Source of the DNA: Membranipora membranacea | Lineage: Eukaryota > Bryozoa > Gymnolaemata > Cheilostomatida > Membraniporidae | Assembly (NCBI GenBank): GCA_914767715.1 | Contig: OU612074.1 | Location: 7,391,501 to 7,455,500 of the forward strand | Direction of reading: 5' to 3' | DNA length: 64,000 nt | Shown here: positions 20,215 to 64,000 of the stretch, in pieces | How the letters are laid out: each line of letters starts with the position of its first letter | Position numbering within the stretch: the stretch's first letter is position 1 | Notes under the pieces: model-generated | What the model was told of the DNA's origin: nothing | The model's database searches: none | The model's input: only the letters and a program-made list of their open reading frames with translations | Made by a program: the position numbers and the translations under genes

Positions 20215-23200
20215 AAGCCTTGATATACAGTAGGATTGAAGTGAGACACCCTGGTAAGATAAAAACAAAACCTGCCTATAGGAGTGCATGCACATTTAGT
20301 CTTGCGCTCATCTACAAACGCCGTACCCTCTTGCCACCATCTCCTTTCTGGACAAAGCCTAAGGGAGCAAACTCCAACAAAAAATCCAGAGAAAGTGGCT
20401 CCCTGACCCAATGGTAGCACACTCACTGAACTCCATGTTTCTTCCAACCAACAATAGGAACTACTTGGGCCTTGTCTTGTCTTGGATTCTCTTTGCCAGG
20501 ACACATAAACCACTTTAGTGGAGAGAACTACTTATGTAACTGGCAAATTTCTGTACAGTCTAATTCCTTGCAAACAATCTCTATGAATAATTCTGGCTAG
20601 GACGTCGCATAAGTTAAAATGATCAAAACACAGAAAATGAAATGAACTGAATGGAATGGAATGACGCTTGTAGACCGGAACAAGGTTCCCAGGCTGTTGG
20701 AGTATAAGAGAAGAAGCTGCAGGATACACCATATTTCGGAGCGGAAAACCATCCACTGAACTAAAGCAGGCTGGTGTAGATGTAGCAATCACTAGTATCA
20801 TCTTCTCCGAGATGGACCAGGAGCCCAAAGCAGTAAGTAATTGAATAATATATCTGACAAATAAACAAACATGACAAACCCACTGGAAATCATTGATGGG
20901 TTTTATGATGAGCTCAGCCAGTTGCTCTACGACATTAATAATGAAAACAAAATGGTTATGCTAGAAAACTTCAACACCTGTGTGTAGGATTGTACCCTCA
21001 CATAGGCTATGGCCTCAAGTACTGGTAAAATTCAACGGTGGTAGAGAAAACAGCAATGGAGAAATCCTCCTTGCCATGTGTAGAGCAATGGCACTTGATT
21101 GACTTTGTGATCACCAGTCAACGAGATATCTAAGATTTCCAGAACACCACGACATTTAGAGGCCAACACTGCAGCACTGACCACATAATGATAGTTTCGA
21201 TAGCAAAGTTTATCATTTGCAAACAGATGACAAAAATAAGAAAGTAAGAAATTGAAGCTGGATAACAACATGAAAGTTCAATCTGTAAAAAACAGTGCTG
21301 AAAGAGGCACTACCTGAGAAATTAGAAGAATGTGATCAAATGCTTGACAAACCAATGTAAGAGCAGATTTTGAGAAATTTGAGAAAATACTGTACAAAAT
21401 ATCTCCATAAAACTGTGACTCATCAAAAGGAAGCATGAAGACTGGTTTGCTGACATCGAAATCGGACTGCTTGAGATGATTAAGACCAGTAATAAAGCAC
21501 AATCAGAAATGATGATCTGAACCACAGGATCTGCCGCTGCCAAATATAAGCAGGCACACAAATGACGACAACATTGATGCATGGAGCTTAAGAACATGAT
21601 GGAAGGACAAAGTGGCTGAACTACAGGAACTGGCTGACTTCAATGAGACAAAAGACTTCTACAAGATCCCTCAAAACTCTTGGACAAAGGAGGCAAAATT
21701 GGTTGTCAGAGAACCCTGACCTGCTGCACTGATGGACTGAGCACTTCAATCAACTATTGAACCAAGATACCTCAGAGATTATAAGAGGCAGAGGTGAAAG
21801 AGCCTCGCAAGCACTTACCAGCATCATAAAAAATATGAAAATGAAGTTCCACAGGACTGTAAAGCCCTTTTCCATATAGAAGAAAGGTGATAGATGTATC
21901 CGCGGTAACTATCGAGGCATTTTTATATTCTTTCCATACAAGGAAAAGTGTTGAACAAGTTCTACTGAACAGACTCGCCTCTTGACCAGTTTCTCCCTGA
22001 GGCTCAGTGTGGCTTTTGAGGTGGCAGGGGTACAGTGGATATGGTGTTCAGTGTGAAACAGGTGCAGGTGATGTGCATTGAGCAAAACATGCCATGTAAA
22101 TGGTTTTTGTAGACTAAATTAAAGCATTTGACGCTATGAATATGAATGCCCTTATTGCTGCTGATTGGCTAATTCTGAAAAATTGAAAAATGATGTGCAT
22201 GCATAAATAATGGTCACTTGAAATTAGAGAGTGATCAGTAAAAAATTGAATTGCAATCATTAGGAGTAATTGTTTATGATGAAACATGGTTATGAGGGAT
22301 AACAGGACTCATACCTTCAACTGCCTGTCCAAAATTCCATGATTTAGAGTCAGATGACACATTCCTCAGCATATCTTGCTTGTATATGCTGATTTTAATG
22401 GGTTTTTCATCATTTTACAATCAAAATGTGAATGTTCAATGTATTTACCTGAAAGGTATATGTTCTTTGCAATATGGCCCATACCTCCATGTTTTTAGAT
22501 TGATCAATTATGGGTTCTGCATAAAGATAAGAATGAAAAATTAACATTTTAATGACTTTTCTCTGGATTATTTTTGAGGTTTAGGCATACTTGTAACCTG
22601 TACGCATAAAGCGTTTGTAAATGCTTATTTGACACTAATTGAGTTTTAAACGCAAAACGCTAGTTGTACTCATTTATGGTTTTCCAAACGCCTGTTCATC
22701 TAATTAGGCAGTCAAAAACGCATCTTTTATCTTTAGTGTTTACTTGGTTGTCATGGTTAAATAATAGTCTAAAAATCTGGTATTGGCTGCAGAAACCATG
22801 ATGTTGAATTACAGTTGACTTTTTACTTGTCCAAGTTTTGCATGAGCCAAATTGCAACTTTTCTTCAATGAGACACAACATAACTAGTAATCCATTGTAG
22901 AATATGGTGGTTCTGCCAACTTCAACTTTTCTTTAATCTGAGTAACAAAGTTGTCTACCTCCTTGTTGGGGTGAGATAACCCAGATCTCCTGCCCCAGTG
23001 TTTCAAGGGCAAACCAGGGAGGATGGGCAAACAGGGTTTCAAATAGCCAGGCTAGGTTACAAACAACTTCCCATTTATCATTTGCAGATTGCACCTTACA
23101 ACGCAAAGGGAAAAAGACTAATGTTGAGTGATCTGCACTCCTACGCTACTAAGGACTACTTACTGTGATAATAGGATTTTTTGCGCGTAGCGCGAAAAAT

Positions 23201-24440
23201 CTTTTGGGGCGTTTTTTGGTCATTTGAGGCACCCTGGAGTTTTGTAAGCATTTTTAAGCATTTTGCAAATTTTTGTACTCATTTTGGAAAAATTAGGTTG
23301 GCAAGTCTGGTTTAAGCAATGTATATCTGAAAAGGATGGCACCTCAACTGTCAATGAGCATCTTCTCTATAGTCCCATGTCTCAGTGTAGTTAAATAAAC
23401 CATCAGTTATGAGAATATTTGGTGTCAACACCATGGCCATCAAGCCTCATCACTAAGCATATTCACAGAATTGCGGTTATTTTCTAGTGAGTCAGTGTAT
23501 TCAGTGTAACCCACCCCTAATTGCTACCAAAGAACTTGGGCTATCATGGAGTTATGTTTCCAATTTAGTGTGGTTTTGAGGGGACAACTCCGAACCAACT
23601 GCACACACCTCAATTGGTCATGTGACTGCAGTTGTTCTTCCTTGAGGTTTAGTTCATTGTTGAAGGTGCTAAATAGATATGTCTGCCTGAAGAAGTTCAT
23701 CAACCTCATCAAAGCATTGCACAAAAACATGCAAGCCCGACTAAGCCTGAACGGCAAACTCTCAGATCCGTTTACGGTATCAAATGGGTCAACCAATGAT
23801 GTGTTCTTGCACTTATGTGCTTTTCCAAATTCCTCAATGCAACCCTTACCCATGCCTTCAATGTCTGTAACAAGAGAGTCCTAATCCAAAGCCGCCGAAA
23901 TGTAGATTTCTTCATTTACACCAGTTTAAATGAATAAGACCAAAGATGTATTAGTGAGAGAATTGATGTTCGTGGACTCTGGTCGATCACGGCTCTGATG
24001 ATGCAACCAAGTTGTCTGAACAGACGTCAACATCAACAAGATGTACCAACTATTCAAAGGATCCAACACCAAGGGCCTGAATATAAAAAAAACTGATAAT
24101 CAAGATTTTAACAAGGTTAACCACTTCAAATATCTAGGGTCAACCCTGTCAGACACGAACAAGCTAGACAAAGAACTGAAATCCAGGAAGCCAAAACGAT
24201 CACTGCTTTTGGGAGTCTGTGAGAATGAGTATATGGCATGATAAGCACCTCACCATCAAGACCAAAGCCGCAGTCTACCATCCAATCAAGCCAATTAAGC
24301 ACATATATGTTGAGGCACCTGAGGTACATTCTCAAGATGAACACCAAACACCGAACACTGAACACCATCACAGCTAATTATTTTCTCTCAACTGAAAGAC
24401 AGTTACCGAAGCAGACAAAAAGCAGAGTGTAGTAGTAGTA
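20215..24440 (+). mobile_element. LINE-C copy 2, interrupted by a 1.5 kb insertion
   Basis: The order matches copy 1: leader (20215-20640), endonuclease remnants (20880-21200), RT remnants (21780-22147), then after an insertion the RT palm and thumb (23650-24300). Readable thumb phrases are VNHFKYLGSTLSDTNKL and FINLIKALHKNMQARLSLNG. Every domain has stops. From 22093 outward it is also the outermost visible part of the left palindrome arm, matching 63312-64000. Confidence 0.8.
22148..23650. other. 1.5 kb insertion in LINE-C, present only in the left arm
   Basis: The right arm reads straight from CCCTTATTG into AAGGTGCTAAATAG (reverse of about 63925-63945). In the left arm these are separated by 1.5 kb. 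The repeated TTG at the junctions is too short to prove a target duplication. The inserted DNA has no recognised gene. It holds a GCGCGTAGCGCG palindrome near 23187 and repeated AAACGC words near 22600-22730. Confidence 0.6.
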
Positions 24441-24613
24441 GTAGCCAGTAGTAGTAGATGGAGAGTGGGGGAATACGAACCACTTGATGATTGGCCAAAG
24501 TAATTGCTAAATCATCTTTCTCTCTTTGTTATATTAAAAGACTTCCAACTGAAGCTGTCTGCATGTGGTGTTGGATTATTCCACTCAATTTCTTGACACT
24601 GCTAGTAAATTCA

Positions 24614-24818
24614 TGGTGCCTTATAGCCGTGGGGTGCCTCATAGCCGTTGAGAGCCTTATAGCCGTGGGGTGCCTTATAGGTGTTGGTTGCCTTATAGCT
24701 GTGGGGTGCCTTATACTTGTTGGTTGCCTTATAACTGTGGGGTGTCTTATAGTCGTGGGTTGCCTTATAGCTGTGGGGTGCCCTCTAGCTGGTAGGTGCC
24801 TTATGACTGAAAAATTTT
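24614..24818. repeat. 18-bp minisatellite, array 2
   Basis: About eleven units of GCCTTATAGCTGTGGGGT and variants. The 109-residue open frame over it (a GCLIAV repeat) is an artefact of the 18-base period. Confidence 0.9.
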
Positions 24819-24839
24819 GAGGGGGCGGCAGGTATGACA

Positions 24840-25404
24840 GTAAATAATTTCGCTGATATCTCAGGAGTTACCTACCTTATTCCCTGGATAAAATATTTCC
24901 AAAATTACTATATAAAATAAAAGATACAAATTCGTGGTTATGATATGGGGCTAGACACATGGAAATTGGTCTGAATCAATTATTGCCATGATGATTATTT
25001 TGAATCATCATAATTATAAATTCAGTGGTATATCACTGAAGAGATACCGCTATAGCACTGTGATCTCCTGTTATCTCCACACATTCAACAAACATCTAAA
25101 TTATCTGATTTTCATGCTTTCAATTGTTAACGCAATGATTGCAGGACGCCATAGTTAGCTGTGATGTCAAATGTGTTTTGAGGTTGTCTCTATACAGATT
25201 CATCTAAATAAAAATAGTTTCACAACCTTAACTGCCAGTAAAACTTACCCATACACAGAGAAAAAAATTGTTTTTATCTACCAAATCATCATTTAGTGAA
25301 ATTATCCGAAAATTTAGATACTGATAACACAGCCTTGCTGGAAACAGGCAGTTCAGCATGTTTTCACACTTGTTTTACACAAACAGGTATTTGGTTGGGG
25401 CCTA
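24840..25404 (+). repeat. R1 repeat, copy 7 (left arm)
   Basis: All R1 landmarks are present, ending at GGTATTTGGTTGGGGCC. It mirrors 62560-63130 in the right arm. Confidence 0.8.
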
Positions 25405-25690
25405 AACATTGAACTTTCCTCCTAACATTTAGACAATTAATTTTCTCCAAAAAAAACTGATTGAAACTTTCTATCATCTCACTAGAGGACCTGAGATATC
25501 GAATTCACAAACCGAATTCACAGATATAATAGATTCACAGACCGAACTACTAGTAGAACTTGTCCATACACAGAGAATACATTATTTTTAGCTCCTTAAT
25601 CGTGCTTGAGTAAAATGATCAAACAATTTTAGATATTGAAAACATAGCCTTGCTGAAAATAGGTAATTCATCGTGTTTTCACACTTGCTT
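25405..25690. repeat. Left-arm-only block matching 9245-9530 in reverse
   Basis: About the first 85 bases are the reverse complement of the start of the LINE-B copy at 9462, and the rest is an R1 fragment in plus orientation. The right arm has an unrelated short sequence here (62517-62570) that resembles the copy at 15840-15885, so the right arm looks ancestral. An inverted ectopic conversion or insertion from the 9.2 kb locus is inferred. Confidence 0.75.
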
Positions 25691-25905
25691 TGGGAACGGA
25701 GGTTTGATCCTCTGCCAATTGATTGACAGTAGGATCACCATTTAATACTTACCTTGGTAATAATTATACAAAGGTAAGTACTAAAAGGGGGATGGATTAC
25801 TTGACGCCATCTATATATTATAATATGAATAGTGTCAAGCAGTCCATCCAGTTAATTGACAGAGACCGGTCAAACTACCTACCCCAGCTCCACAATCACT
25901 GTCTT
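25690..25905 (+). repeat. M repeat (MITE-like), copy 3
   Basis: It mirrors 62300-62510. Internal symmetry around AAGGTAAGTACT is visible, with GAATAGTGTCAAGCAGTCC and ACCGGTCAAACTACC. The 62-residue open frames in both arms are not genes. Confidence 0.65.
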
Positions 25906-25949
25906 TTTTAAACCTAATGGGTAGCCATTATGCTACACTTTGCCTATTT

Positions 25950-26190
25950 TTGATTTATGTGATATCGTGGGATTGATTGCAGTTAGCTGAGTTAGCTGTT
26001 GTTGTTTGAATTATGCTAAGTGATACTGACTATTGAAATGCCACATCAAAATAGTTCAACTCACCTAAATTTCTTCATCATATTGGGAGAATCTGAAAAA
26101 ATGATGATGGATTCTGTTTTCTCAACTGGACTTAGTGACTATGTGCTTCATTGACGGCTCTCTGATCATGCTCTACAATGTGAAACGGTG
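25950..26190 (+). repeat. S repeat, copy 2
   Basis: It shares GAGTTAGCTGTTGTTGTTTG and TCTTTGATGGCTCTCTGATC-type phrases (here TTGACGGCTCTCTGATCATG) with the copies at 8780 and 62030, in the orientation opposite to 8780. Confidence 0.7.
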
Positions 26191-26276
26191 TCCCAACTTT
26201 TGAGAGTGAAATCATTGACTGTTTAGGCAGTAGGTTATAGGCCCATACCTGGTCCAACTGTGCCTCGGTAGACATT

Positions 26277-26312
26277 TATATATATATAATATATATATAT
26301 ACTTTTATTGTA
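26277..26312. repeat. AT dinucleotide microsatellite
   Basis: A run of TA repeats with one interruption directly abuts the 3' end of LINE-B copy 2. It is mirrored at 61913-61940. Confidence 0.9.
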
Positions 26313-26739
26313 AGCAATAATTCATTATTACTAATGTTTTCATGATGTGACATAAATGGCAAAAAAGAAGAATGATACAAACAAAGATTCAATAAATAAT
26401 AAGACTATGCCAATAAACTGAAACTATGTTGCATTAGCCTTTTCTTAAACATATTTAAAGTAAGAGTGCTTCTCGAAAATATTAAAATATTAAAGTTTGT
26501 TGCTATTTTGTGGTTAAAGTTGTCCAATGGAAGTTTGAGTAATTGTGTATCTCTTCTTGGAAATCGGTGTGGTAACAAAAAAATCAGAGATGTATGGAGG
26601 GGATTAATTACTCAGAGCATTAAATCCTGTGATGCAAGTAAAATAATTGCTCAGTATTGGAAGGGGTAAAATTTAAGTGATGTACATAGGTCATTAGTAG
26701 GTGATAAATAAAAATGGGTATGTTATGGAGTGCCATCTG

Positions 26740-27422
26740 TAAAATAATTGGTCAAGGATTAGATGGGTGCATCTTTACTTATGCGGACTATAATGTTTGC
26801 ATGGTGGATTTTTTAATTTTTGCCATGTCAACTTTTATGTTTATATAGTGAATAATGATGTTTACCTGGTGGATTTTGATTTTCAGTATGCCAACTTTCA
26901 TGTTTGTTAGGTAGACTTTCATGTTTAGTGTGTGAATTCCCATGTTTAGTAGGTGAACTTTTGTGTTTAGTAGGTGAACTTTCATGTTTAGTAGGTGAAT
27001 TATACTGTTTTGCCTGTCAACTGTAAATGCTTTTGCGCATCATGTTTCACAGGTGGACTTTCAATTTTACTGGGCGGACTTTCATTTGTTGGGTGATCTC
27101 TGTTATAGGGCATTATGAGGAAATGGCATCAATGGAGTTGTGTTCTCAATAGAATAGCCTGTGATCCTCAGTAAATAAAGCTAATTGAGATACTTGTCTG
27201 TCAAAGCTTATTTAGACTTTGAATAACCAAAATGGATGGTTTCAGTTCAACGCAGCAACACATAAATGGGAATTATGCCCCCTGAATAAGATCACTATGG
27301 CCACTCTCTCTTTCAAAACATGCATACTATTGTATTTGGTAATTAATCATGTTGATGGCATTAGGCTTCAAACAGGACAACCATATCTGAGCAAGATCAA
27401 ATCTTCAATACAGGTTTATTAG
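26740..27422. mobile_element. Insertion with 21-bp minisatellite inside LINE-B
   Basis: The uninterrupted LINE-B at 46398 shows that about 15 bases of the host LINE were lost and replaced by this segment. It contains about 14 diverged 21-base units (TAGTAGGTGAACTTTCATGTT) at 26795-27110, translated as a seven-residue repeat in spurious frames. It is present in both arms (60788-61490), hence older than the palindrome. No terminal repeats were established. Confidence 0.65.
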
Positions 27423-27522
27423 ATTCTCAAGGCTCTTTTTTGCTGAGTGAAAATTGGGTTTGTCATACTTGATGCACATAAGTTGTAATATATATGGATA
27501 CCATAAATGAGATAACAGGGAA

Positions 27523-27757
27523 AAATATTGCTTCTCCGCCTATTGGCTAAGATCAAAGTGTCACTGCCAATGGCCGATTAGTGCCAGTTCAGTTTTGGCA
27601 GCCCGCTGCACACCCACGATCAGGAGGTCCACCATGGCCTCACCTCTAGGATGCATTCTAGTTTTCTAGGATGTATCACGTTCTCAGTATGAGGATTTAG
27701 GGCACCTTGCGTCCCTCTTTAGGGGCAGCCGAATCTTCTGTTTCTTCGCAAACAGCA
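27523..27757 (+). mobile_element. SINE-like element with a U2 snRNA-like 5' end
   Basis: A 235-bp insertion in LINE-B is flanked by the 13-base duplication AGATAACAGGGAA (27510-27522 and 27758-27770). From 27527 about 34 bases resemble the 5' end of U2 snRNA with roughly three substitutions and one inserted base. GGCTAAGATCAA (27545-27556) is the conserved branch-point-interaction neighbourhood. The remainder (27562-27757) does not resemble U2. There is no clear poly-A tail. The long target duplication indicates LINE-mediated insertion. It could be a true snRNA-derived SINE or a one-off chimaera made by template switching. Confidence 0.7.
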
Positions 27758-28850
27758 AGATAACAGGGAATAAATTGAAAATAAAATTGTTTAGCAGAAT
27801 GTGTGGTCAAGTAGGGTCTGCATAGCTTAAGTAAGTTTGTATTTTTTGACACCTTATCCAAAGCAGTCTCACAATGACCATTCAATGAAAACGAGTCAGA
27901 TATCTTAAAGCCAAGAAGTTCTGTTTCATGTCTTTGAATTTATCTGGTTATTGCCAATTTATAAATTTAACAATGAATCCTCCCCCAAAGAACTTAGAAA
28001 GTGTGATTTTTTTATAATTTATTCTCATATGATTACTTTTACACCACTTGTTGATTGAAACCAAATCCCGATTACAGTTCGAGGAGAGAGGTAGATTGAG
28101 TAGGTCATTTAAATAAATCTGAAATAAAGTTGGTGCCAGTATTGAACCTTGCGGAACCCCAATTTTGATGTCAAGTATTGATGACACTGCACCATTATAA
28201 TGAACATACTGAGACCTGTCTTGTAGAAGTGATGATAACAACAAAAATTCCTTCTTCTCAAAATCAAAGATTTGTAGTTCATCTTTTTATAGTTGGTGAT
28301 CAACACAATCAAATGCTTTGCAGAAATCAGTAAACATTAAAATACTCTTCCTTTGTTTGAGTTTCTCAGGGGAAAGTCAGAAAAATTTTGTGAACGACGT
28401 CACTGCATGAATGTGCAGTGCGAAACCAGACTGCGATAGAGATAATAGATGGTTTTCATTTAAAAATACCTGAATATTGATATTCAAATGCTTTTTCCTG
28501 GGTCATCTTTTGACCCTGACTTAAAAAAAAATAGGGGTTACGTGAGCAATTTTCCAGACTTTTGGAAATACTACTTTATCTAAAATTCTATTGAAAATAT
28601 CTGTGAGCACTTGACTTAGGGAAATGTTTTGCTTAACATCTGAACTGAAATCAGGACCAGTGCTTTTGCCCATGGGTATTGATTTTAGAAGCTTATCCAA
28701 TGTGACTGTTGTCAATTTTGGAAATTGTTTCGAACCTTTGTGGTGGTAATTTGGTAAAGTGCTAGGAAAATCAGAAATCAAAGAACATGTGTGTTGTGTT
28801 TGACCAGAGTCACAAGACCTGTCTTGATTGGGGCCTTTTCTCACTCTTTA

Positions 28851-29269
28851 AAGAAATACCTTCTGCTTGAGTATGAAAGCATCAGAAGGTTCTCCTAAAA
28901 TTGATAAATTAAGAGCAAATTAGAGGCGCTAATGGGCTAGAGCTATATTCTATAAACTGGCCCAATAGCAATGTTTTAGTTCCTCTTGGAAAACATTTGT
29001 TTTCGTAAGGATGATTTTTTATTGCTATTATGTTTGCTAGGGGATAGCGCGAACGCAGTCCCCAACTACCAAAAATTACTCTCTTGAGTTACCCACATTT
29101 GGGGCAATCGCAAGCGTCAGCCAAACTGAAGTGCAATGGTAAGGCCTCTTCTTGGGGGATCTGCCATACTTCCTTATTTATTACAGATCTAGTGAGAAAA
29201 AACTTTTAAATTAACATTCAAATATTATGGAAAAAAGATTATATTATTACGAAGTTATTAAATAGGGTG
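28851..29269. other. Sequence between LINE-B and LINE-D, no gene
   Basis: No gene was recognised. It is mirrored at about 58975-59395. Confidence 0.5.
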
Positions 29270-29379
29270 TTGATGAAAAACTGTAATAAATGCACCTCCG
29301 GTCAGATGTTCATGACCATCATTGGACTTTGGTAGAGAGATGTTAAATCTACCAGGGGCACCTACTCCTCACCTTGGTG

Positions 29380-30039
29380 TCCCTCTTAAAATTGTGTTCA
29401 GAATATATTTCATACATATTTTTAATTTTTGCATCGAGTTGTTTTAGTTCAACTGAAACAGTGGATGAGTTGAAACGTATGGCATTGCGGCTGTCCCATA
29501 TCGCTTTATTAAAAGAAGCAAAGATTTAAAAAAGTTCACGTTCATCATATGTGTTTAATGGGGTTTGTATGACTCCTGTGCAGCAAAGGAGAATGATCTC
29601 AGCTCTTTGGAGGTGTTTAGCTTGTTATAAATTAATTTTATTTATTAGTTCTATTATTAGTCTTCTATATGTGACAAGAGTTTCACAGTCAGAAGAAAGG
29701 TGGACCGTTGTTTCAACCAAACACTCTGTACAAAAGGCGCACATGACATTTGCCTTGGGAAGTTTTATCTTTTTTATTATATTCACCTGTTTTAAGCCCT
29801 TCAAAAGCTAGGCGCCACATAAAATAAAAGAGTGGTGCAGGAAGAACAGAGTCTGTCCAGATTTTAGAAATCTTTTGAGGTAATTCTTTTCTATGGTTTA
29901 ATATCTTTAATAATTTAATAGTGGCTTCTTCTTCATCGCCTCTCAGCCATAGATAATTATAGCTTAGTTTTTGTCTTATTAAGTTTACCTCCCGTACCCA
30001 GATACATTTCATCAAAAACAGAAAAAATTGTCTCGACAT
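29380..30039 (-). pseudogene. LINE-D RT C-terminus with CxxC zinc motif
   Basis: It overlaps the RT end in another frame and carries LPQKISKIWTDSVLPAPLF and FMWRLAFEGLKTG, leading to the CAFC...H motif (partly shifted here, intact in the right arm). It ends in the NAIRFNSSTV-type tail. Confidence 0.7.
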
Positions 30040-30715
30040 CAGCTATGCTATCACAGAAAAAAAGGTCATCAGCATAAGCTGTGCAAACTGCCCTTTGGGT
30101 ATTGGGCAGTGATATACCTCTATACTCTTTCCTTTTACAAAAAAATGAAATGCAGGATTGGATATATGTAGTATAGAGAGTGGCCAACTGAGGGCATCCT
30201 TCTCTGACACCTCTCTCTAGAGAAATGCTCTGCGATAGACGAATATTGACTTCAAGGCATGTCACAGTTTTTGAATATATAGTTGATATGAAATTTATTA
30301 TGTCTTTGTGTATCTTCATGGCTTTCATAGTTTTCAATAAAAAATCGCGATTCACCATGTCAAAAGCCTTTTGTTGGTCTAGTGACATGAGTATTGCGGA
30401 CAGTATTTTATTTCTCATAAAAACTGTTGTATCTCGTATAAAGATGTTGCCGTCATGGATAGAGCGGCCTGCTACGGTGCAAAGTTGAACATTTGGTATT
30501 ATTGTTGACATAATATTTTTTAAATAATTTAAATTGATATGTTTAGTGAGAAGTTTGTAGTCAGTGTTTAAAAGAGTAATAGGTCGGTAGTTGGAAGGGT
30601 TGTTATTGTCACCTTCTTTTGGGATAAGTTCAGTGACAGCTGTAGACATAGAGGGGGGTAGAACACCATGTTGTATAGTTTCCTTGAAGACATCCACTAT
30701 TTTGTCGGATATCAC
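29957..30715 (-). pseudogene. LINE-D reverse transcriptase
   Basis: This 252-residue stretch holds most of the RT: ELIPKEGDNNNPSNYRPITL (fingers), SLDQQKAFDMVNRDFLL (motif A), ERGVREGCPQLATLY (motif B) and CTAYADDLFFCDS (motif C, YADD). It is the least broken LINE-D RT, but the upstream (GPDG-type) fingers and the thumb lie in other frames. The right arm equivalent is split by a fold-back duplication. Confidence 0.85.
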
Positions 30716-31461
30716 ATCGAAAAAGCAATTATAGAATTATACAGTTAAACCATCCGGGCCTGGTGTTTTATTTTTATTCATTAAAGCTAAAGTTTTTTTA
30801 ATAGAGTCATGTTTAAGGACATCTTGAGTAGGATCTATGGAAGGGTCACATTTTAATTCGTCTGTTGTACAACTTAAGATTTCATCTTGAACCGAGCTGT
30901 CACCACTGTGATTTTATATAGATCATGGTAGAAATTTTTGAATATATTAAACATTGAAGGGTTGTCATAATGCATGATGCTCGTTTCAGGGTTTTTAACT
31001 GATTTCATTTTATTTGATTTACACCTGTTCTGTATCCTACCAAAGAAGAATGCGCTGCACTTTTCATCTCTCAGTTATTTGAGGGAATGAGATCTTATGT
31101 GGAGCATTTTAAACTGTTGCTCCTAATACTCGAAGTTCTGTTTTTAGCTAAAACATTGATATTGGGTCAGTTCCACTCTCCAGTAGCATTGTTATTATTC
31201 TTTCTGTTTTATTCTTTTCTTTTTTAATATAAGAGCAATGGTTCGTAGTGATTCTTTTAATTCTCCGTTTTATTTCATCCCACCACTCTCCAGTGGATGC
31301 AAATCCTTCTCTAATAGTACGACGGTCATCAAAAGGGTTTTTAACTTTTTCTTTAAAGAAATCACTTTTTAAACATTCGTTTTTCAATTTCCAGAATGAT
31401 TTACCAGGTAGAGTAAATGGGTGCACTGACTTGTGGTCAGAAGAAGGAAAAAAAGAAGACT

Positions 31462-43620: not shown

Positions 43621-43639
43621 AAATATGCTTTTCCGTGAA

Positions 43640-53740: not shown

Positions 53741-53981
53741 GCTGTTTAGTTTATTGTTTGAAATACAATTATCTTAAGATATGTATGATCTACAAAAAGA
53801 AGTATCTCATATCTGTTATTACTACCGTACTCATTGATGAAGGTCTGATAGAAATGACTTACATTGACTCTAAATTCGGTAAGAAAGTTAGAATTATTAA
53901 TTGAAGCACCCTAGCTGTGACCGGACAAAGATTCCTTTGGGAATCCCATAGTATTATTGCAGTGCTTCCGTATGAGAATTT

Positions 53982-54271
53982 ACAAGTAAAGTGAGACTTA
54001 CCTACGTAGTCCATAAGTTGAAACTTGACTATAATTGTCATTGAAGCACTGCTATACTATGGGAGACCAAAGGCCCTCCATCCCACCCTAACCAGAAGGA
54101 GGTATAAAATTTTTTATTTGCATTACAACTTTGTCGGGTGCTGGTAAATTGTGAGGAGCTGCGCAGGCGCGGTGGAATTCCTTTAGTCTCCCATAGTATA
54201 GCAGTGCTTCAATGAGAATTATAGTCAAGTTTCAACTTACGGACTACGTAGGTAAGTCTCACTTAACTTGT
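53982..54271. repeat. Long hairpin at DIRS 3' end (right arm)
   Basis: 92-base inverted repeats lie at 53982-54073 and 54180-54271, mirroring 33783-34072. The copies keep pairing with only a few mismatches in both arms. Confidence 0.85.
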
Positions 54272-54950
54272 AAGTAATACAGCGAGAGAGGGCATACGCG
54301 TTTTACAGTAATTGATCATTAGCCAGTTCATGTGCAAGGCCAATAAGACATGCACTGTTATTGTAAACTGCCAATCAAACTTTGTTAGCATTAGTAGATA
54401 ATAATAATAATAATGGCCTTGGTCATAGAACGCCACAGCTCATGGTGCATAGCGTAGTGAAGACAGATACTTTTAGCATTGCCTCCACTTAACTATTTGA
54501 AAGTACAACAGGAACTTCATCAATTTATGAATTCAGAAATTCATTGAATACTGATTTATGCTATACAACTTTAAACAAACAAATTTGTAACAGGAGATGT
54601 AATGATAACTCCTTATTATAAAACGATTTCAACTGACACTATTTATTTGTGACTCGGTTTTGAGTTGGGTACAAACCTGACCTTTCTTGACTCATACTTA
54701 CCTGGCACAGGGGCATCTAGGACACTGTCACAGGCGTAACAGGTACCGCGTACAGATTCTCTTTTGCTCGAGCGATATATTTTGGTGCAGCATATTGTAA
54801 AGTGGATATTTTCTATTTTCTTGGGTGAGTTATAAAATATCATAATCTTTGCATTGGTACATTATTTCTTGCACTCATGTAAATTACTTACCTTTCTCAG
54901 TAATTACTGCGCATCCGTTCTTAGCTAGAGCTGGTGTACAATACCTGCTG
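54272..54950. other. Between hairpin and LINE-D, no gene
   Basis: The mirror of 33126-33782 with small indels. No gene was recognised. Confidence 0.5.
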
Positions 54951-54977
54951 TTGTGAGCTTAGTCGTAGCTTGCACAA

Positions 54978-55978
54978 TGGTACTTAAAAATGTGGTTTTG
55001 TTAAAGGATGTAACCTTCGATCCAAAGGACAGGGTAACTTTATTTTCGGAAATTAAAAAGTATACTAATTGTATAACAGACATAAAAGGTGATTCTCAAA
55101 GAAGGGTATAATATAACCTTCTTGAGCCAAGAAGCTGCAATTAATTTCCTTACCAGAGCACCAAAATCATGGAGTTTAAGAACAGATTTACGTCAAGACC
55201 GACTAGTAACAGTTTCTCCCTAGGTGGGTGAGGGTCATTTAATGGTAGATGATGAGGTTCTTTGGGCAGCATTGAGCAACTACGGGGAGGTAAAGAAGGT
55301 GTAGAAAGTGTAGAAAATGGAGTTAGACAATTCGTTGTAGTTCCTCGCAGGGGTGCAGTCATCCTTAGCTCATTGGGATTTGGTCGGGCTGGTTTCCGAG
55401 TAGCCTACAGAGATCAAACAAAAACATGCCACAAATTTCAGTCCACCCTCCATTTAGCATCAGAGTGCCCCACCCCCTGGTGTAACAGATGCCACCAATC
55501 TGGGCACGATAAGTCAGAATGTCAAAAGATCGACAAATGCTCCATATGTGGAGATATGGGACATGATTACACCTCATGCTCCAAATCGTATGCCCTAAAG
55601 GTGATGCTCGGGAAATCATGGGAAGTAGGGAAACAGGCAGAACAGGATGTCAACCTAGAAGTGAGCCAGGATCAGAGCCCTGATTTTTATGTTCAACCGT
55701 ACAAGGCCAATAAAACAAGCTCTCAGTCATGATCATTGTCATCTGATGATGATGATGTCTCTACCTTAAACCAAGTCTCAAAAAGACTTAAAATCTTAAC
55801 TGACCTGAGTTCACCTAAAACACAATCCAAAAAATCTGGACAACGGGCCCCGAAACTCACTCCTATGAAATTGCCGCATCTATCTCCTCTTTCCCAGAGC
55901 TCGTCCGCAATTAACTTTACAATATTGCCTCTTGCAAATAAATTTAGTGGACTGAATGAAAGTCCGAGTACTGGTTAA
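54978..55978 (+). pseudogene. LINE-D ORF1 with CCHC knuckles (right arm)
   Basis: It begins MVLKNVVLLKDVTFDPKD, shifts frame near 55105, has a stop shared with the left arm (near 55222), then continues with CPTPWCNRCHQSGHDKSEC and CSICGDMGHDYTSC. A Ser/Pro/Lys-rich tail runs to 55978 in another frame. A small deletion (lost KGRKLFYEELP region) is specific to this arm. Confidence 0.85.
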
Positions 55979-56108
55979 AATATACCACTCTATCACCTCT
56001 TAGCCTTTATACTCCAACCCCTCACTCAAGACCGGACCAGGCTCTCTTAAACCCCCACCCCTTACTTACCTTTTTTTTCTCTTCTACATCAATTTTATTT
56101 TTTCTTTC

Positions 56109-56717
56109 ATGATTCCAAATCTAACAATTACATCCATGAATGTTAATGGTATGGCAAATAGAACCAGACGTAACAAATGCATTAAACTTCTTAAAGAAAT
56201 AAAATCCGATATCATATTCCTCCAAGAAACCCACATTAAAGAATGTAGTGAATGGAGTGGTGAATCTTTCCACTGCTTCCTCTCGTCTAAATCTTGTGGT
56301 GTTTCAATTTTGTTTAAACCTGGTCTTGACTGTCTGGTTGAAGAAGTGCATAGAAGTGATGATGGCAGGATTTGTGCAGTAGATATTTTTTTCTGTAAAA
56401 GTAAAATCCGGCTGATAAGTGTGTATGCCCCCACTTCAAACACACTTCCGAGTTTCTTGTCAGCGGATAGACCAAACATTTATGCAGATGACATGAGCTG
56501 TGTATCCTCAGTCGAGCTGGATGCTAAAAATAGCAATGCGGAGTGCCTCTTTTTGGCTCTCGGAGAGTTGGATTGTTTGCTTGAGAACTTTTGTCTCGTT
56601 GATTCTTTTCGGGTTGAAAACCCCAATTTGTCTGATTACACTTGGTACAGCGGCGACTCAACCAGATCCAGCGGTCTTGATCGGTTTTTCTACCACCTGC
56701 TTTCAAATCCGAAATAA
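56109..56717 (+). pseudogene. LINE-D endonuclease (right arm)
   Basis: 202 residues, close to the left arm: MIPNLTITSMNVNGMANRTR, IIFLQETHIKE, LISVYAPTSN, ADDMSCV and SGLDRFFYH. Several substitutions differ from the left copy. It stops at the same point. Confidence 0.8.
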
Positions 56718-57461
56718 AGTCTTCTTTTTTTCCTTTTTCGGACGACAAGGCAGTGCACCCATTTACTCTACCTGGTAAATCATTCTGGAAATTGAAAAAC
56801 GAATGTTTAAAAAGTGATTTCTTTAAAGAAAAAGTTAAAAACCCTTTTGATGACTGTCGTACTATTAGAGAAGGATTTGCATCCACTGGAGAGTGGTGGG
56901 ATGAAATAAAACGGAGAATTAAAATAATCACTACGAAACATTGCTCTTATATTAAAAAAGAAAAGAATAAAACAGAAAGAATAATAACAATGCTACTGGA
57001 GAGTGGAACTGACCCAATATCAATGTTTCAGCTAAAAACAGAACTTCGAGAATTAGGAGCAACAGTTTAAAATGCTCCACATAAGATCTCATTCCCTCAA
57101 ATAACTGAGAGATGAAAAGTGCAGTGCATTCTTTTTTGGTAGGATACAGAACAGGTGTAAATCAAATAAAATTAAATCAGTTAAAAACCCTGAAACGGGC
57201 ATCATGCATTATGACAACCCTTCAAAGTTTAATATATTCAAAAATTTCTACCATGATCTATATAAAATCACAGTGGTGACAGCTCGGTTCAAGATGAAAT
57301 CTTAAGTTGTACAGCAAACAAGTTAAAATGTGACCCTTCCCTAGATCCTACTCAAGATGTCCTTAAACATGACTTTATTAAAAAAACTTTAGCTTTAATG
57401 AATAATAATAAAACACCAGGCCCGGATGGTTTAACTAGAATTCTATAATTGCTTTTTCGAT

Positions 57462-58309
57462 GTGATATCCGACAAAATAGTGGATGTCTTCAAGGAAACT
57501 ATACAACATGGTGTTCTACCCCCCTATATGTCTACAGCTGTCACTGTACTTATCCCAAAAGAAGGTGACAATAACAACCCTTCCAACTACCGACCTATTA
57601 CTCTTTTAAACACTGACTACAAACTTCTCACTAAACATATCAATTTAAATTATTTAAAAAATATTATGTCAACAATAATACCAAATGTTCAACTTTGCAC
57701 CGTAGCAGGCCGCTCTATCCATGAGGGCAACATCTTTATACGAGATACAACAGTTTTTATTTCTCATTAAAACTGTTGTATCTCGTATAAAGATGTTGCC
57801 GTCATGGATAGAGCGGCCTGCTACGGTGCAAAGTTGAACATTTGGTATTATTGTTGACATAATATTTTTTAAATACTCATGTCACTAGACCAACAGAGGC
57901 TTTTGACATGGTGAGTCGCAATTTTTTATTGAAAACTATGAAAGCCATAAAGATACACAAAGATATAATAAATTTCATATCAACTATATATTCAAAAACT
58001 GTGACATGCCTTGAAGTCAATATTCGTCTATCGCAGAGCATTTCTCTAGAGAGAGGTGTCAGAGAAGGATGCCCTCAGTTGGCCACTATCTGTACTACAT
58101 ATATCCGATCCTGCATTTCCTTTTTTTGTAAAAGCAAAGAGTATAGAGGTATATCACTGCCCAATACCCAAAGGGCAGTTTGCACAGCTTATGCTGATGA
58201 CCTTTTTTTCTGTGATAGCATAGCTGATGTCGAGACAATTTTTTCTGTTTTTGATGAAATGTATCTTGGTACGGGAGGTAAACTTAATAAGACAAAAACT
58301 AAGCTATAA
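57462..58309 (+). pseudogene. LINE-D reverse transcriptase, broken by a fold-back duplication
   Basis: The fingers (VLIPKEGDNNNPSNYRPITL) are intact to about 57757. A reversed copy of 105 bases follows, replacing about 25 bases up to motif A. Then EAFDMVSRNFLL, ERGVREGCPQLATI and CTAYADDLFFCDS (58180-58215) resume. The left arm shows the uninterrupted order. Confidence 0.85.
57653..57873. repeat. 105-bp fold-back inverted duplication
   Basis: 57653-57757 and 57769-57873 are reverse complements with about one mismatch and an 11-base loop. The left arm has only one copy in normal order. The loop is the reversed version of the next bases in the left arm (ATGAGAAAT), which is the mark of template switching during replication. 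Confidence 0.92.
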
Positions 58310-58866
58310 TTATCTATGGCTGAGAGGCGATGAAGAAGAAGCCACTATTAAGTTATTAAAGAAATTAAACCATAGAAAAGAATTACCTCAAAAGATTTCT
58401 AAAATCTGGACAGACTCTGTTCTTCCTGTGCCACTCTTTTATTTTATGTGGCACCTAGCTTTTGAAGGGCTTAAAACAGGTGAATATAATAAAAAGATAA
58501 AGCTTCCCAAGGCAAATGTCATGTGCGCCTTTTGTACAGAGTGTTTGGTTGAAACAACGGTCCACCATTTTTCTGACTGTGAAACTCTTGTCACATATAG
58601 AAGACTAATAATAGAACTAATTAATGAAATTAATTTATAACAGGCTAAAGACCTCCAAAGAGCTGAGATATGATGAACGTAAACTTTTTAAAATCTTTGC
58701 TTCTTTTAATAAAGCGATATGGGACAGCCGCAACGCCATACGTTTCAATTCTTCCACTGTTACAGTTGAACTAAAACAACTCGATGCAAAAATTAAAAAT
58801 AATTTTATGTATGATATATATTCTGAAAACACTGTTAATAGTGACACCGAGGTTGATGAGGAGTAG
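58227..58866 (+). pseudogene. LINE-D RT C-terminus with CxxC...H...C motif
   Basis: VMCAFCTECLVETTVHHFSDC gives CxxC, His and Cys in zinc-binding spacing. It is preceded by WTDSVLPVPLFYFMWHLAF and followed, after a stop, by LFKIFASFNKAIWDSRNAIR. It probably follows the RT thumb and binds nucleic acid. Confidence 0.75.
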
Positions 58867-58900
58867 GTGCCCCTGGTAGATTTAACATCTCTCTACCAAA

Positions 58901-59394
58901 GGCCAATGATGGTCACAAACATCTGACCGGAGGTGCATTTATTACAGTTTTTCATCAACACCCTATTTAATAACTTCGTAATAATATAATCTTTTTTCCA
59001 TAATATTTGAATGTTAATTTAAAAGTTTTTTCTCACTAGATCTGTAATAAATAAGGTATGGCAGATCCCCCAAGAAGAGGCCTTACAATTGCACTTCGGT
59101 TTGGCTGGCGCTTGCGATTGCCCCAAATGTGGGTAACTCGGGTGCGTCATTTTTGGTAGTTGGGGACTGCGTTCGCGCTATCCCCTAGCAAACAAGATAG
59201 CAATACAAAATCATCCTCATGTAAACAAATGTTTTCCCAGAGGAACCAAAACATTGCTATTGGGCCAGTGTATAGAATATAGCTGTAGCCCATTAGCGCC
59301 TCTAATTTGCTCTTAATTTATCAATTTTAGGAGAACCTTCTGATGCTTTCATACTCAAGCAGAAGGTATTTCTTTAAAGAGTGAGAAAAGGCCC
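58901..59394. other. Sequence between LINE-D and LINE-B, no gene
   Basis: No gene. It mirrors 28851-29269 with small indels. Confidence 0.5.
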
Positions 59395-60452
59395 CAAACA
59401 AGACAGGTCTGGTGACTCTGGTCAAACACAACACACATGTTCTTTGATTTCTGATTTTCTTAGCACTTTACCAAATTACCACCACAAAGGTTCGAAACAA
59501 TTTCCATAATTGACAACAGTCACATTGGATAAGCTTCTAAAATCAATAACCATGGGCAAAAGCACTGGTCCTGATTTCAGTTCGGATGTTAAGCAAAACA
59601 GTCAAGTGCTCACAGATATTTTCAATAGAATTTTGATGAAGGAGTCCAAAAATCTGGAAAATTGCTCACGTAACTCCTATTTTTTTTAAGTCAGGGTCAA
59701 AAGATGACCCAGGAAAAAGCATTTGAATATCAATATTCAGGTATTTTTAAATGAAAACCATCTATTATCTCTATCGCAGTCTGGTTTCGCACTGCACATT
59801 CATGCAGCGACGTCGTTCACAAAATTGTTCTGACTTTTCCCCTGAGAAACTCAAACAAAGGAAGAGTATTTTTATGTTTATTGATTTCAGCAAAGCATTT
59901 GATTGTGTTGATCACCAACTATAAAAAAATGAACTACAAATCTTTGATTTCGAGAAGAAGGAATTTTTGTTGTTATCATCACTTCTACAAGACAGGTCTC
60001 AGTATGTTCATTATAATGGTACAGTGTCATCAATACTTGACATCAAAATTGGGGTTCCGCAAGGTTCAATACTGGCACCAACTTTATTTCAGATTTATTT
60101 AAATGACCTACTCAATCCACCTCTCTCCTCGAACTGTAATCGAGATTTGGTTTCAATCAACAAGTGGTGTAAAAATAATCATATGAGAAAAGATTATAAA
60201 AAATCACTCTTTCTAAGTTCTTTGGGGGAGGATTCATTGTTAAATTTATAAATTGGCAATAACCAGATAAATTCAAAGACATGAAACGGAACTTCTTGGC
60301 TTTAAGATATCTGACTCGTTTTCATTGAATGGTCATTGTGTGACTGCTTTGGATAAGGTGTCAAAAAATACAAACTTACTTAAGCTATGCAGACCCTACT
60401 TGACCACACATTCTGCTAAACAATTTTATTTTCAGTTTATTCCCTGTTATCT

Positions 60453-60687
60453 TGCTGTTTGCGAAGAAACAGAAGATTGGGCTGCCCCTAAAGAGGGACG
60501 CATGGTGCCCTAAATCCTTATACTGAGAATGTGATACATCCTAGAAAACTAGAATGCATCCTAGAGGTGAGGCCATGGTAGACCTCCTAATCGTGGGTGT
60601 GTAGCGAGCTGCCAAAACTGCACTGGCACTAATCGGCCATTGGCAGTGACACTTTGATCTTAGCCAATAGGCGGAGAAGCAATATTT
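60453..60687 (-). mobile_element. SINE-like element with U2-like head (right arm)
   Basis: The reverse copy of 27523-27757. The U2-like segment is at 60649-60683. The flanking duplications are TTCCCTGTTATCT (60440-60452) and TTCCCTGTTCTCT (60688-60700), now differing by one base. Confidence 0.7.
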
Positions 60688-60787
60688 TTCCCTGTTCTCT
60701 CATTTATGGTATCCATATATATTACAACTTATGTGCATCAAGTATGACAAACCCAATTTTCACTCAGCAAAAAAGAGCCTTGAGAAT

Positions 60788-61490
60788 CTAATAAACCTGT
60801 ATTGAAGATTTGATCTTGCTTAGATATGGTTGTCCTGTTTGAAGCCTAATGCCATCAACATGATTAATTACCAAATACAATAGTATGCATGTTTTGAAAG
60901 AGAGAGTGGCCATAGTGATCTTATTCAGGGGGCATAATTCCCATTTATGTGTTGCTGCGTTGAACTGAAACCATCCATTTTGGTTATTCAAAGTCTAAAT
61001 AAGCTTTGACAGACAAGTATCTCAATTAGCTTTATTTATTGAGGATCACAGGCTATTCTATTGAGAACACAACTCCATTGATGCCATTTCCTCATAATGC
61101 CCTATAACAGAGATCACCCAACAAATGAAAGTCCACCCAGTAAAAATGAAAGTCCACCTGTGAAACATGATGCGCAAAAGCATTTACAGTTGACAGGCAA
61201 AACAGTATAATTCACCTACTAAACATGAAAGTTCACCTACTAAACACGAAAGTTCACCTACTAAACATGGGAATTCACACACTAAACATGAAAGTCTACC
61301 TAACAAACATGAAAGTTGGCATACTGAACATCAAAATCCACCAGGTAAACATCATTATTCACCATATAAACATAAAAGTTGAGATGGCAAAAATTAAAAT
61401 CCACCATGCAAACATTATAGTCTGCATAAGTAAAGATGTACCCATCTAATCATTGACCAATTATTTTACAGATGGCACTCCATAACATAT
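60788..61490. mobile_element. Insertion with 21-bp minisatellite (right arm)
   Basis: It mirrors 26740-27422. The array at about 61120-61430 reads AACATGAAAGTTCACCTACT in 21-base steps. The 74-residue open frame is a repeat artefact. Confidence 0.65.
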
Positions 61491-61912
61491 CCCTTTTTAT
61501 TTGTCGCCTTCTAATGACCTATGTACATCACTTAAATTTTACCCCTTCCAATACTGCGCAATTATTTTACTTGCATCACATGATTTAAGGCTCTGAATAA
61601 TTAATCCCCTCCATACATCTCTGATTTTTTTGTTACCACACCGATTTCCAAGAAGAGATACACAATTACTCAAACTTCCATTGGACAACTTAAACCACAA
61701 AATAGCAACAAACTTTAATATTTTAATATTTTTGAGAAGCACTCTTACTTTAAATATGTTTAAGAAAAGGCTAATGCAACATAGTTTCAGTTTATTGGCA
61801 TAGTCTTATTATTTGTTGAATCTTTGTTTGTATCATTCTTCTTTTTTGCCATTTATGTCACATCATGAAAAACAAGAGTAATAATGAATTATTGCTTACA
61901 ATAAAAGTATAT

Positions 61913-61940
61913 TTATACAATATTATATATATAAATGTCT
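61913..61940. repeat. AT microsatellite (right arm)
   Basis: A short AT-rich run after LINE-B, shorter than its mirror at 26277. Confidence 0.85.
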
Positions 61941-62029
61941 ACCGAGGCACAGTTGGACCAGGTATGGGCCTATAACCTACTGCCTAAACAGTCAAAAATT
62001 TCACTCTCAAAAGTTGGGACACCTTTCAC

Positions 62030-62270
62030 ATTGTAGAGCACGATCAGAGAGCCGTCAAAGAAGCACATAGTCACTAAGTCCAGTAGAGAAAACAGAATCC
62101 ATCATCATTTTTTCAGATCCTCCCCATATGATGAAGAAATTTAGGTGAGTTGAACTATTTTGATGTGGCTTTTCAATAGTCAGTATCACTTAGCATAATT
62201 CAAACAACAACAGCTAACTCAGCTAACTGCAATCAATCCCACGATATCACATAAATCAAAAATAGGCGAA
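62030..62270 (-). repeat. S repeat, copy 3
   Basis: It mirrors 25950-26190 and is also in the same orientation as 8780-9060 (GATCAGAGAGCCGTCAAAGA, CAACAACAGCTAACTCAGCT). Confidence 0.7.
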
Positions 62271-62299
62271 GTGTAGCATAATGGCTACCCATTAGGTTT

Positions 62300-62510
62300 A
62301 ATAAAGACAGTGATTGTGGGGCTGGGGTAGGTAGTTTGACCGGTCTCTGTCAATTAACTGGATGGACTGCTTGACACTATTCATATTAAAATATATAGAT
62401 GGCGTCAAGTAATCCATCCCCCTTTTAGTACTTACCTTTGTATAATTATTACCAAGGTAAGTATTAAATGGTGATCCTACTGTCAATCAATTGGCAGAGG
62501 ATCAAACTTG
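62300..62510 (-). repeat. M repeat (MITE-like), copy 4
   Basis: It mirrors 25690-25905. The right arm then continues into sequence like 15840-15885, not into the LINE-B scrap found at 25405. Confidence 0.65.
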
Positions 62511-62559
62511 TCTCCTTTACATTCACTACCGAAGCCCCACTAGAAAAATCTCATGTTCG

Positions 62560-63130
62560 GGACCCAACCAAATACTTGTTTGTGTAAAACAAGTGTGAAA
62601 ACATGCTGAACTGCCTGTTTCCAGCAAGGCTGTGTTATCAGTATCTAAATTTTCTGATAATTTCACTAAATGATGATTTGGTAGATAAAAACAATTTTGT
62701 TCTCTGTGTATGGGTAAGTTTTACTGGCAGTTAAGGCTGTGAAACTATTTTTATTTGAATCTGTATAGAGACAACCTCAAAACACGTTTGACATCACAGC
62801 TAACTATGGCGTCCTGCAATCATTGCGTTAACAATTGAAAGCATGAAAATCAGATAATTTAGATGTTTGTTGAATGTGTGGAGATAACAGGAGATCACAG
62901 TGCTATAGCGGTATCTCTTCAGTGATAAATACCACTGAGTTTATAATTATGATGATTCAAAATAGTCATGGCAATAATTGATTCAGGCCAATTTCCATGT
63001 GTCTAGCCCCATATCATAAACCCGAATTTGTATCTTTTATTTTATATAGTGATTTTGGAAATATTTTATCCAGGGAATTAGGTAGGTAACTCCTGAGATA
63101 TCAGCGAAAATATCTACTGTCATACCTACC
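62560..63130 (-). repeat. R1 repeat, copy 8 (right arm)
   Basis: It mirrors 24840-25404. GACCCAACC, CAGCAAGGCTGTG and TAGAGACAACCTCAAAAC mark the reverse R1 landmarks. Confidence 0.8.
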
Positions 63131-63164
63131 GCCCCCTCAAAAAATTAAAAATGTTTCAGTCATA

Positions 63165-63312
63165 AGGCACCCACCAGCTAGAGGGCACCCCACAGCTATA
63201 AGGCAATCCACGACTATAAGACACCTCACAGTTATAAGGCAACCAACAAGTATAAGGCACCCCACAGCTATAAGGCAACCAACACCTATAAGGCACCCCA
63301 CGGCTATAAGGC
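63165..63312. repeat. 18-bp minisatellite, array 3
   Basis: About eight units of ACCCCACAGCTATAAGGC and variants. This is the inverted form of array 2, with fewer copies. Confidence 0.9.
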
Positions 63313-64000
63313 ACTCAACAGTAGTGTGGACAGCTTGATTGGATGGTAGACTTCGGCATTGGTCTTGATGGTGAGGTGCTTATCATGCCATACTCATTCT
63401 CGCAGCCTCCCAAAAGCAGTGATGCTTTTGGCTTCCTGGATTTCAGTTCTTTGTCTAGCTTGTTCGTGTCTGACAGGGTTGACCCTAGATCTTGATTAAC
63501 AGTTTATTTTATATTCAGGCCCTTGGTGTTGGATCATTTGAATAGTTGGTACATCTTGTTGATGTTGATGTCTGTTCGAACGACTTGGTTGCATCATCAA
63601 AGCCATGATCGATCAACGAGTCCACGAACATCAATTCTCTCGCTAATATATCTTTGGTATTATTCATTTAAACTGGTGTGAATTTAGAGGTCTACATTTT
63701 GGCGGCTTCGGATAAGGACTCTCTTGTTACAGTCATTGAATGCATGGGTAAGTGCTGCATTGAGGAACTTGGAAAAGAACATAAGTGCGAGAACACATCA
63801 TTGTTTGACCCATTTGATACCGTAAACGGATCTGAGAGTTTGCCGTTCAGGCTTAGTCGGGCTTGCATGTTTTCGTGCAAGGCTTTGATGAGGTTGATGA
63901 ACTTATTCGGGCAGGCATATCTATTTAGCACCTTCAATAAGGGCAGTCCTATTCATAGCGTCAAATGCTTTAGTTTGGTCTTCAAAAACCATTTACATTG
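63312..64000 (-). pseudogene. LINE-C copy 3 RT remnant (right arm, runs off window)
   Basis: On the minus strand: motif A region (AFDAMNRT-like, near 63950-63965), VLNRYACPNKFINLIKALHE, NMQARLSLNGKLSDPFTVSN, a degraded motif B, then the thumb phrase FKYLGSTL-like near 63470. It lacks the 1.5 kb insertion present at 22148 in the left arm. A 148-base stretch seen at 24440-24610 is shortened here, joining the array to the LINE. Confidence 0.8.

Follow-up and report, generated by a model that had tools for sequence, protein, structure and literature searches.

An imperfect palindrome of roughly 50 kb in a cluster of degenerate U1 copies of the bryozoan Membranipora membranacea

The palindrome and what it carries

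On contig OU612074.1 (here C10; 24,422,204 bp) of the bryozoan Membranipora membranacea (assembly GCA_914767715.1), a stretch of 64,000 nucleotides contains an imperfect DNA palindrome of roughly 50 kb, in which the sequence from 22.1 to 38.0 kb is mirrored from 64.0 back to 44.7 kb. This stretch, C10:7391501-7455500, is the window of our analysis. Coordinates are window positions unless a contig is named; 100 kb of flank was added on each side, for a total of 264 kb, and genome searches covered 339,339,785 bp in 18 contigs. The window holds the following features.

22093..38039, plus strand: left arm within the window; homology extends to 16149
22155..23659 (1505 bp): stretch found in the left arm only, an insertion here or a deletion in the other arm
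29038..29206, minus strand: degenerate U1 small nuclear RNA (snRNA) of unit 3 (Rfam), with its first ~25 bases beyond LINE-D near 33.34 kb
29180..33335 (ends approximate), minus strand: LINE-D, a long interspersed nuclear element (LINE) inside the U1 copy, an old insertion in both arms; right-arm partner at ~54.7-59.07 kb
33780..36275 (ends approximate), minus strand: DIRS-like fragment with Phage_integrase and Dam-like open reading frames (ORFs), in both arms, truncated at its junction with the transfer RNA (tRNA) piece
36276..38164, plus strand: tRNA-Asn array piece, its collinear match (94.5%) lying at C2:31630057-31631979 (locus L029, 5057-6979)
36352..38039, plus strand: inner left arm, a putative recent conversion tract with 7/1688 differences to the right arm
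37059..37132, plus strand: tRNA-Asn(GTT) of the left arm
38165..43751, plus strand: PIF/Harbinger-like DNA transposon with a DDE_Tnp_4 ORF (39321-40325) and a 3 bp target-site duplication (TSD), AAT
43751..44628, plus strand: the same C2 array piece continued beyond the transposon (L029, 6976-7860; 87.7%)
43838..43911, plus strand: tRNA-Asn(GTT) of the spacer
44630..44709 (80 bp): junction filler, adjoining the fold-back point
44710..64000, minus strand: right arm within the window; homology extends outside it to 69916
44710..46397, minus strand: inner right arm, partner of 36352-38039 (7/1688 differences)
45617..45690, minus strand: tRNA-Asn(GTT) of the right arm
46398..51362 (4965 bp), plus strand: LINE confined to the right arm; ORFs for endonuclease and reverse transcriptase
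52937..53231 (295 bp): short element with terminal inverted repeats, resembling a miniature inverted-repeat transposable element (MITE-like), in the right arm only; 8 bp TSD GTTAACAT, with the left arm as its empty site
59047..59187, plus strand: degenerate U1 snRNA of unit 4 (Rfam)

Self-BLAST (listed from 150 bp upward for inverted and from 200 bp upward for direct matches) returns a collinear inverted series: 23657-24291/63940-63333 (88.7%), 24647-25409/63319-62553 (94.8%), 25702-30395/62507-57872 (95.4%), 30417-33123/57760-55060 (95.9%), 33122-34830/54954-53224 (94.7%), 34823-36358/52936-51356 (94.6%) and 36352-38039/46397-44710 (99.6%). Five Markov-shuffled windows yield no minus-strand match at E<=1e-10, and the inverted arms are confirmed as real in this assembly. 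A preliminary description of the window had claimed that every feature of 22.1-38.0 kb recurs in reverse at 44.7-64.0 kb, and the self-comparison bears this out. Its left limit of 22.09 kb, however, is a mere effect of the window end: with the flanks added, the mirror goes on, gapped and at 88-92% identity, up to 16149/69916. Past that point no collinear inverted match reaching 400 bp and 85% identity was seen within 100 kb. One match of 73% (15261-15832/69971-69406) lies at the level of the block common to the surrounding repeat cluster, and thus weak mirror pieces may remain farther out. By their identities the arms answer to an inverted segmental duplication, that is, more than 1 kb at 90% or better in opposite orientation and beyond one dispersed repeat.

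Layers of age in the arms and at the axis

Several insertions are old enough to be common to both arms, namely LINE-D in the U1 copy, the DIRS-like fragment and the tRNA piece. LINE-D entered the U1 copy after about the 25th base, an event that predates the inverted copy. The element is dispersed in the genome, and the notion that it is specific to U1 was rejected, since among the places listed only the two palindrome copies coincide with a listed U1, although both lists may miss degenerate copies. Past the tRNA-piece junction near 36275, the DIRS-like fragment is missing the reverse-transcriptase part, which we take to be due there from the domain order of DIRS elements. Other insertions are confined to one arm. 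The right-arm LINE carries a 7 bp TSD, ATATATC, with one TSD copy counted in the 4965 bp stretch and with the left arm as its empty site, and it is mainly this stretch that makes the right arm the longer one. Hence the order runs from the shared insertions, through the inverted copy, to the newer right-arm LINE and MITE-like element. The earlier claim that the arms share old insertions and differ by newer ones is therefore upheld, in the latter case by TSDs with empty sites opposite. For the 1505 bp stretch of the left arm, inspection of the edges gave no clear long target duplication. In addition, ~126 bp of the right-arm LINE-D (57750-57875) runs against the orientation of the adjacent sequence, a micro-inversion confined to that arm.

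The axis has a counterpart elsewhere in the genome. On C2, positions 5057-7860 of L029 are uninterrupted and collinear with window 36276-38164 plus 43751-44628, a piece of ~2.8 kb; the surrounding C2:31625001-31635000 carries five tRNA-Asn genes and one tRNA-His gene. In the 20 loci that flank the window on C10, ARAGORN found no tRNA gene. A genome search with the inner arm gave at least 50 matches (40 of 106 candidates were scored), among which are the two palindrome copies and one C2 copy at 94% over the whole length; the remaining listed matches are shorter or poorer, and many fall within C2 tRNA-Asn clusters. These matches lead us to interpret the axis as part of a C2 array that was transplanted here, and the C2 collinearity provides both the empty site of the spacer and a source for the axis piece. 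The arm part differs from C2 at 66 of 1687 sites (3.9%), slightly above the arm-to-arm value of 3.0% (p 0.049).

The preliminary description gave the spacer as 6.7 kb, which is its present size (38040-44709), but most of it arrived later: ~5.59 kb is the Harbinger-like transposon with its TSD, and ~1.08 kb is older sequence. On C2 the empty site reads ATTAATGACTG without the element, and AAT is duplicated with it. Over 1.3 kb the element has a 99% match on C1, and it is thus probably young. Among its protein relatives are some that bear the name nuclease HARBI1, and the named relatives of two transposon proteins are scattered, mostly among invertebrates. With the transposon left out, the spacer is single-copy, as in fold-back inverted duplications. 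C2 homology stops near 44630, the 80 bp filler follows, and the inverted copy then begins at 44710, opposite 38039. Neither the C2 piece nor the 264 kb offers a convincing counterpart to the filler. We also considered the 10 kb core, 36352-46397, as one transposon with 1.7 kb terminal repeats; this was rejected because the supposed repeats match the C2 tRNA-Asn array and the C2 copy is uninterrupted across the Harbinger site.

To follow divergence between the arms, 22000-38200 was aligned globally to 44600-64000 in reverse complement, and aligned-column identity was taken in steps of 500 bp. Identity is 92-96% at 23.5-26 kb, 94-99% at 26-36.5 kb and 99.4-99.8% at 36.5-38.0 kb; put as divergence, it falls from ~10% outermost to ~3% over 26-36 kb and to 0.4% where the arms adjoin the axis, over 1.69 kb. 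Across 26-36.35 kb the arms differ at 306 of 10,224 columns (two were double-counted; a second count gives 10,222). Divergence there varies little among 40 windows of 250 bp (chi-square p 0.039), and the longest run of identity, 217, is unremarkable (P 0.33); together these leave little sign of repeated conversion. The inner tract stands apart: its 7/1688 differences compare with 40/1529 in the adjoining stretch (Fisher p 1.4e-7) and with the 306/10224 of 26-36.35 kb (p 4e-13). Nor is it simply slow-evolving, since comparison of the inner arms with C2 shows 66 and 63 differences in about 1687 sites; at the 7 differences between them, C2 sides with the right arm in five and with the left arm in two. 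Divergence changes sharply at the LINE inserted in the right arm only, and this points to a single late arm-to-arm conversion, stopping at the LINE, by which the inner 1.69 kb was probably homogenised. Gene conversion, to which the preliminary description held the structure prone, is thus supported for this inner tract alone. A palindrome maintained by conversion should exceed 99% over most of its arm; here solely block 36352-38039 does so, and the other blocks lie at 93.9-97.4%.

The U1 repeat cluster

The palindrome sits in a cluster of ~165 kb with five degenerate U1 snRNA copies, 29-33 kb apart. In the Rfam search of the 264 kb these fall at window positions -37446 (minus strand), -4324 (plus), 29038 (minus), 59047 (plus) and 88461 (minus), starting on C10 at 7354054, 7387176, 7420538, 7450547 and 7479961, and we number the corresponding units 1 to 5. 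The alternation of at least three copies is what is looked for in an inverted triplication. In the genome-wide U1 search, in which 42 of 5342 first-look candidates were scored, at least 36 matches are listed, 31 of them over the cut-off. Among the matches listed, 14 score 143-152 bits, on C3, C4, C6 and C9; the five cluster copies score 78-129 bits and look degenerate, and one further weak match (47 bits) lies at C10:3.576 Mb. Elsewhere, C4:19463902-19474761 holds ten U1-like copies on one strand, ~1.1-1.3 kb apart, which score below full U1 genes elsewhere on C4.

Block 24647-26200 was searched against the genome with 40 of 256 candidates scored and the query's own place counted. At least 77 matches are listed, of which 52 fall in C10:7.316-7.478 Mb, on both strands, and the block is for that reason a local duplicon; for this block, the idea that the arms are chance assemblies of dispersed repeats was rejected on the same ground. 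Other listed matches include seven near C10:3.57 Mb and four near C9:17.82 Mb, and the 14 matches elsewhere cover only the part with an 18 bp array (query 3-172) or a 91-bp piece. Outlying copies of the cluster block thus occur at C10:3.570-3.576 Mb, the site of the weak U1 match, and at C9:17.818-17.827 Mb. A block of ~570 bp matches 38 pieces across the 264 kb (23 on the plus and 15 on the minus strand), which form 9 runs of orientation, about 19 being expected if they were mixed; so few runs indicate that blocks, not single repeats, were inverted. As a coding exon this block was rejected: all six frames contain stops in the three copies tested. In a literature search, no report of a comparable U1/tRNA cluster was found.

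Once oriented on U1, the units fall into pairs. Units 1 and 2 are 96.3% identical over 5.1 and 2.4 kb, two stretches that an insertion of 5.7 kb separates in unit 2; farther upstream there are pieces at 88-95%. Units 3 and 4, the two arms, are 94.6-95.9% identical over 11.5 kb, 99.6% over 1.7 kb and 88-92% outside. Pairs 3-5 and 4-5 are mostly at 87-95% near U1 and 72-78% farther out, and units 1/2 against 3/4/5 are mostly at 72-91%. Pairs 1/2 and 3/4 are each mutually closest over most of their length. In a tree built on the 390 bp from U1 onward, 3 and 4 group together (support 93) and 5 comes next. When units 3, 4 and 5 are aligned three ways, the ten windows over 29.2-24.95 kb hold 128 sites joining 3+4, 42 joining 3+5 and 67 joining 4+5, and 30 of these 67 fall in one off-trend window, 25.81-25.26 kb. 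An eleventh window, across the break, gives 22/7/7 in the same order. Six windows farther out, over 21.1-19.15 kb, give 42/49/93, a sum that favours 4+5, while one of them, 19.75-19.45 kb, prefers 3+5 (7/20/10); a final stub of 37 columns (0/3/18) was left out. The counts make the right arm a mosaic, near the left arm on its inside and on the whole near unit 5 on its outside.

Further repeats are found in this region. At 143.5-164 kb (C10:7535008-7555500; L026-L028), direct repeats in pieces of 0.5-3 kb and of 90-99% identity are spaced ~8-17 kb apart. At 4139-4561 a perfect tandem array repeats an 11 bp unit 38.5 times, and this unit recurs in diverged arrays at 7245-7523 (inverted) and 18901-19109.

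Origin of the palindrome and related systems

What the comparisons establish is the anatomy and part of the insertion order: a composite of U1 segment, LINE-D, DIRS-like fragment and ~2.8 kb tRNA-Asn piece is present in both orientations, and, with the transposon left out, its copies flank a single-copy spacer of ~1.1 kb. From this we infer a replication mechanism. We consider it likely that the palindrome is an interstitial inverted segmental duplication, formed by fold-back or strand switch inside the low-copy-repeat cluster and followed by insertions and one short conversion. A repair or replication fork would have moved through the tRNA piece while copying it, changed strand and gone on copying in reverse (by fold-back or by origin-dependent strand switching), similar earlier events in the cluster having produced the alternating U1 units. 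Afterwards the Harbinger-like element would have entered the spacer and the LINE and MITE-like element the right arm, and last would come the 1.69 kb conversion next to the axis. The inverted segmental duplication put forward in the preliminary description is supported by the arms, their end points and the local duplicon block, and the palindrome reads as a product of local instability.

Several observations weigh against this account. Five alternating signs alone arise by chance once in 16 and are suggestive only. Right-arm DNA past ~65 kb is on the whole nearer unit 5, so a single duplication misfits the outer arms; even over the 390 bp from U1 on, the raw distance is 4.6% for units 4 and 5 and 5.5% for 3 and 4. 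The fold-back junction holds the 80 bp filler, and no diagnostic microhomology or short inverted repeat was recognised there. Finally, the spacer part differs from C2 at 86 of 875 sites (9.8%, unevenly), as against 66/1687 for the arm part (p 6e-9), and one simple capture gives no explanation for this.

The preliminary description named a mis-joined pair of haplotypes as its main alternative. Two divergent haplotypes of one locus, joined tail to tail in the assembly, would give a false palindrome, and ~3% divergence with one-arm insertions would suit the alleles of a very polymorphic animal. Such a join predicts even identity, typically running on to a contig end or gap, yet along the arm divergence climbs from 3% to ~10%, the strong mirror stops at 16.1/69.9 kb, and the 264 kb contain zero N. 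Moreover, the outer right arm is on the whole nearer a third copy, unit 5, than the left arm, three inverted pairs (1/2, 3/4 and 4/5) share the neighbourhood, and the fold-back junction is filler DNA with no long shared overlap. We therefore regard an assembly artefact as unlikely. Sister-chromatid fusion, also proposed there, would involve a terminal break and a breakage-fusion-bridge cycle and does yield inverted duplications. That model predicts no spacer (PMC3907307) and its pathway loses distal DNA (PMC10766186), whereas a single-copy spacer of ~1.08 kb is present here and the contig runs on to both sides of the locus, at 7.4 of 24.4 Mb; it is very improbable. By those criteria, the single-copy spacer and interstitial site favour fold-back or strand-switch replication over terminal sister fusion.

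A different history would dispense with recent duplication: inverted paralogues already ~10% diverged were later homogenised by long conversion over 13 kb. The older divergence retained in the outer arms and in units 4/5 is in keeping with this, and conversion probably did act on the inner 1.69 kb. Conversion in repeated rounds, however, would be expected to give a patchy pattern, and 26-36.35 kb is almost evenly diverged and has no surplus of long identical runs; a single long tract would resemble duplication. On balance we think this history improbable. Returning to fold-back or strand switch, the alternating units fit serial events of that kind. A bolder version, which we offer as tentative and rather doubtful, is serial strand-switch growth with an opposite-orientation unit added per round, such that neighbours stay closest relatives, and with the C2-type tRNA-Asn piece captured in the fold-back event, transcribed tRNA arrays being sites that stall forks. 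If true, the locus would record long-running serial inverted amplification in an animal germ line.

Primate low-copy-repeat clusters are likewise mosaics of blocks in both orientations confined to one region; unlike those, the blocks here contain part of a tRNA array as well as degenerate U1 copies. In human nonrecurrent fold-back inverted duplications, the single-copy spacer is mostly a few kb, some junctions have inserted sequence, and the events are tied to terminal deletions, translocations and rings (PMC3907307). The bryozoan locus has the inverted copies around a single-copy spacer in common with them, but it is interstitial and old (~3%), its arms measure 13-22 kb, and it lacks a distal terminal deletion, as the contig continues. 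In inverted triplications by origin-dependent inverted-repeat amplification (ODIRA), yeast secondary events lengthen spacers to 1.1-34.9 kb (PMC10766186). The cluster resembles these in that copies alternate in orientation at an interstitial site, and differs in having five units with diverged mosaic edges; neither an origin nor short junction inverted repeats were recognised in it. Sex-chromosome palindromes are described as having arms of more than 99% identity kept alike by gene conversion (PMC3723533, PMC8981503); large inverted arms are shared with them, as is conversion near the axis, but more than 99% is reached here in 1.69 kb alone.

The structure is thus of a known kind, with an unusually readable history. 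The published examples that we found are fresh disease mutations, yeast events and conversion-polished sex-chromosome palindromes. In Membranipora the layers of age are separable (an old cluster, an inverted copy at ~3%, insertions that one arm has and for which the other is the empty site, and a late conversion over a short tract), and the axis also holds a tRNA array piece from another contig. As a record of how such structures form and age, the locus could be used to test models of fold-back and strand switch, and to ask whether a one-arm insertion blocks arm-to-arm conversion.

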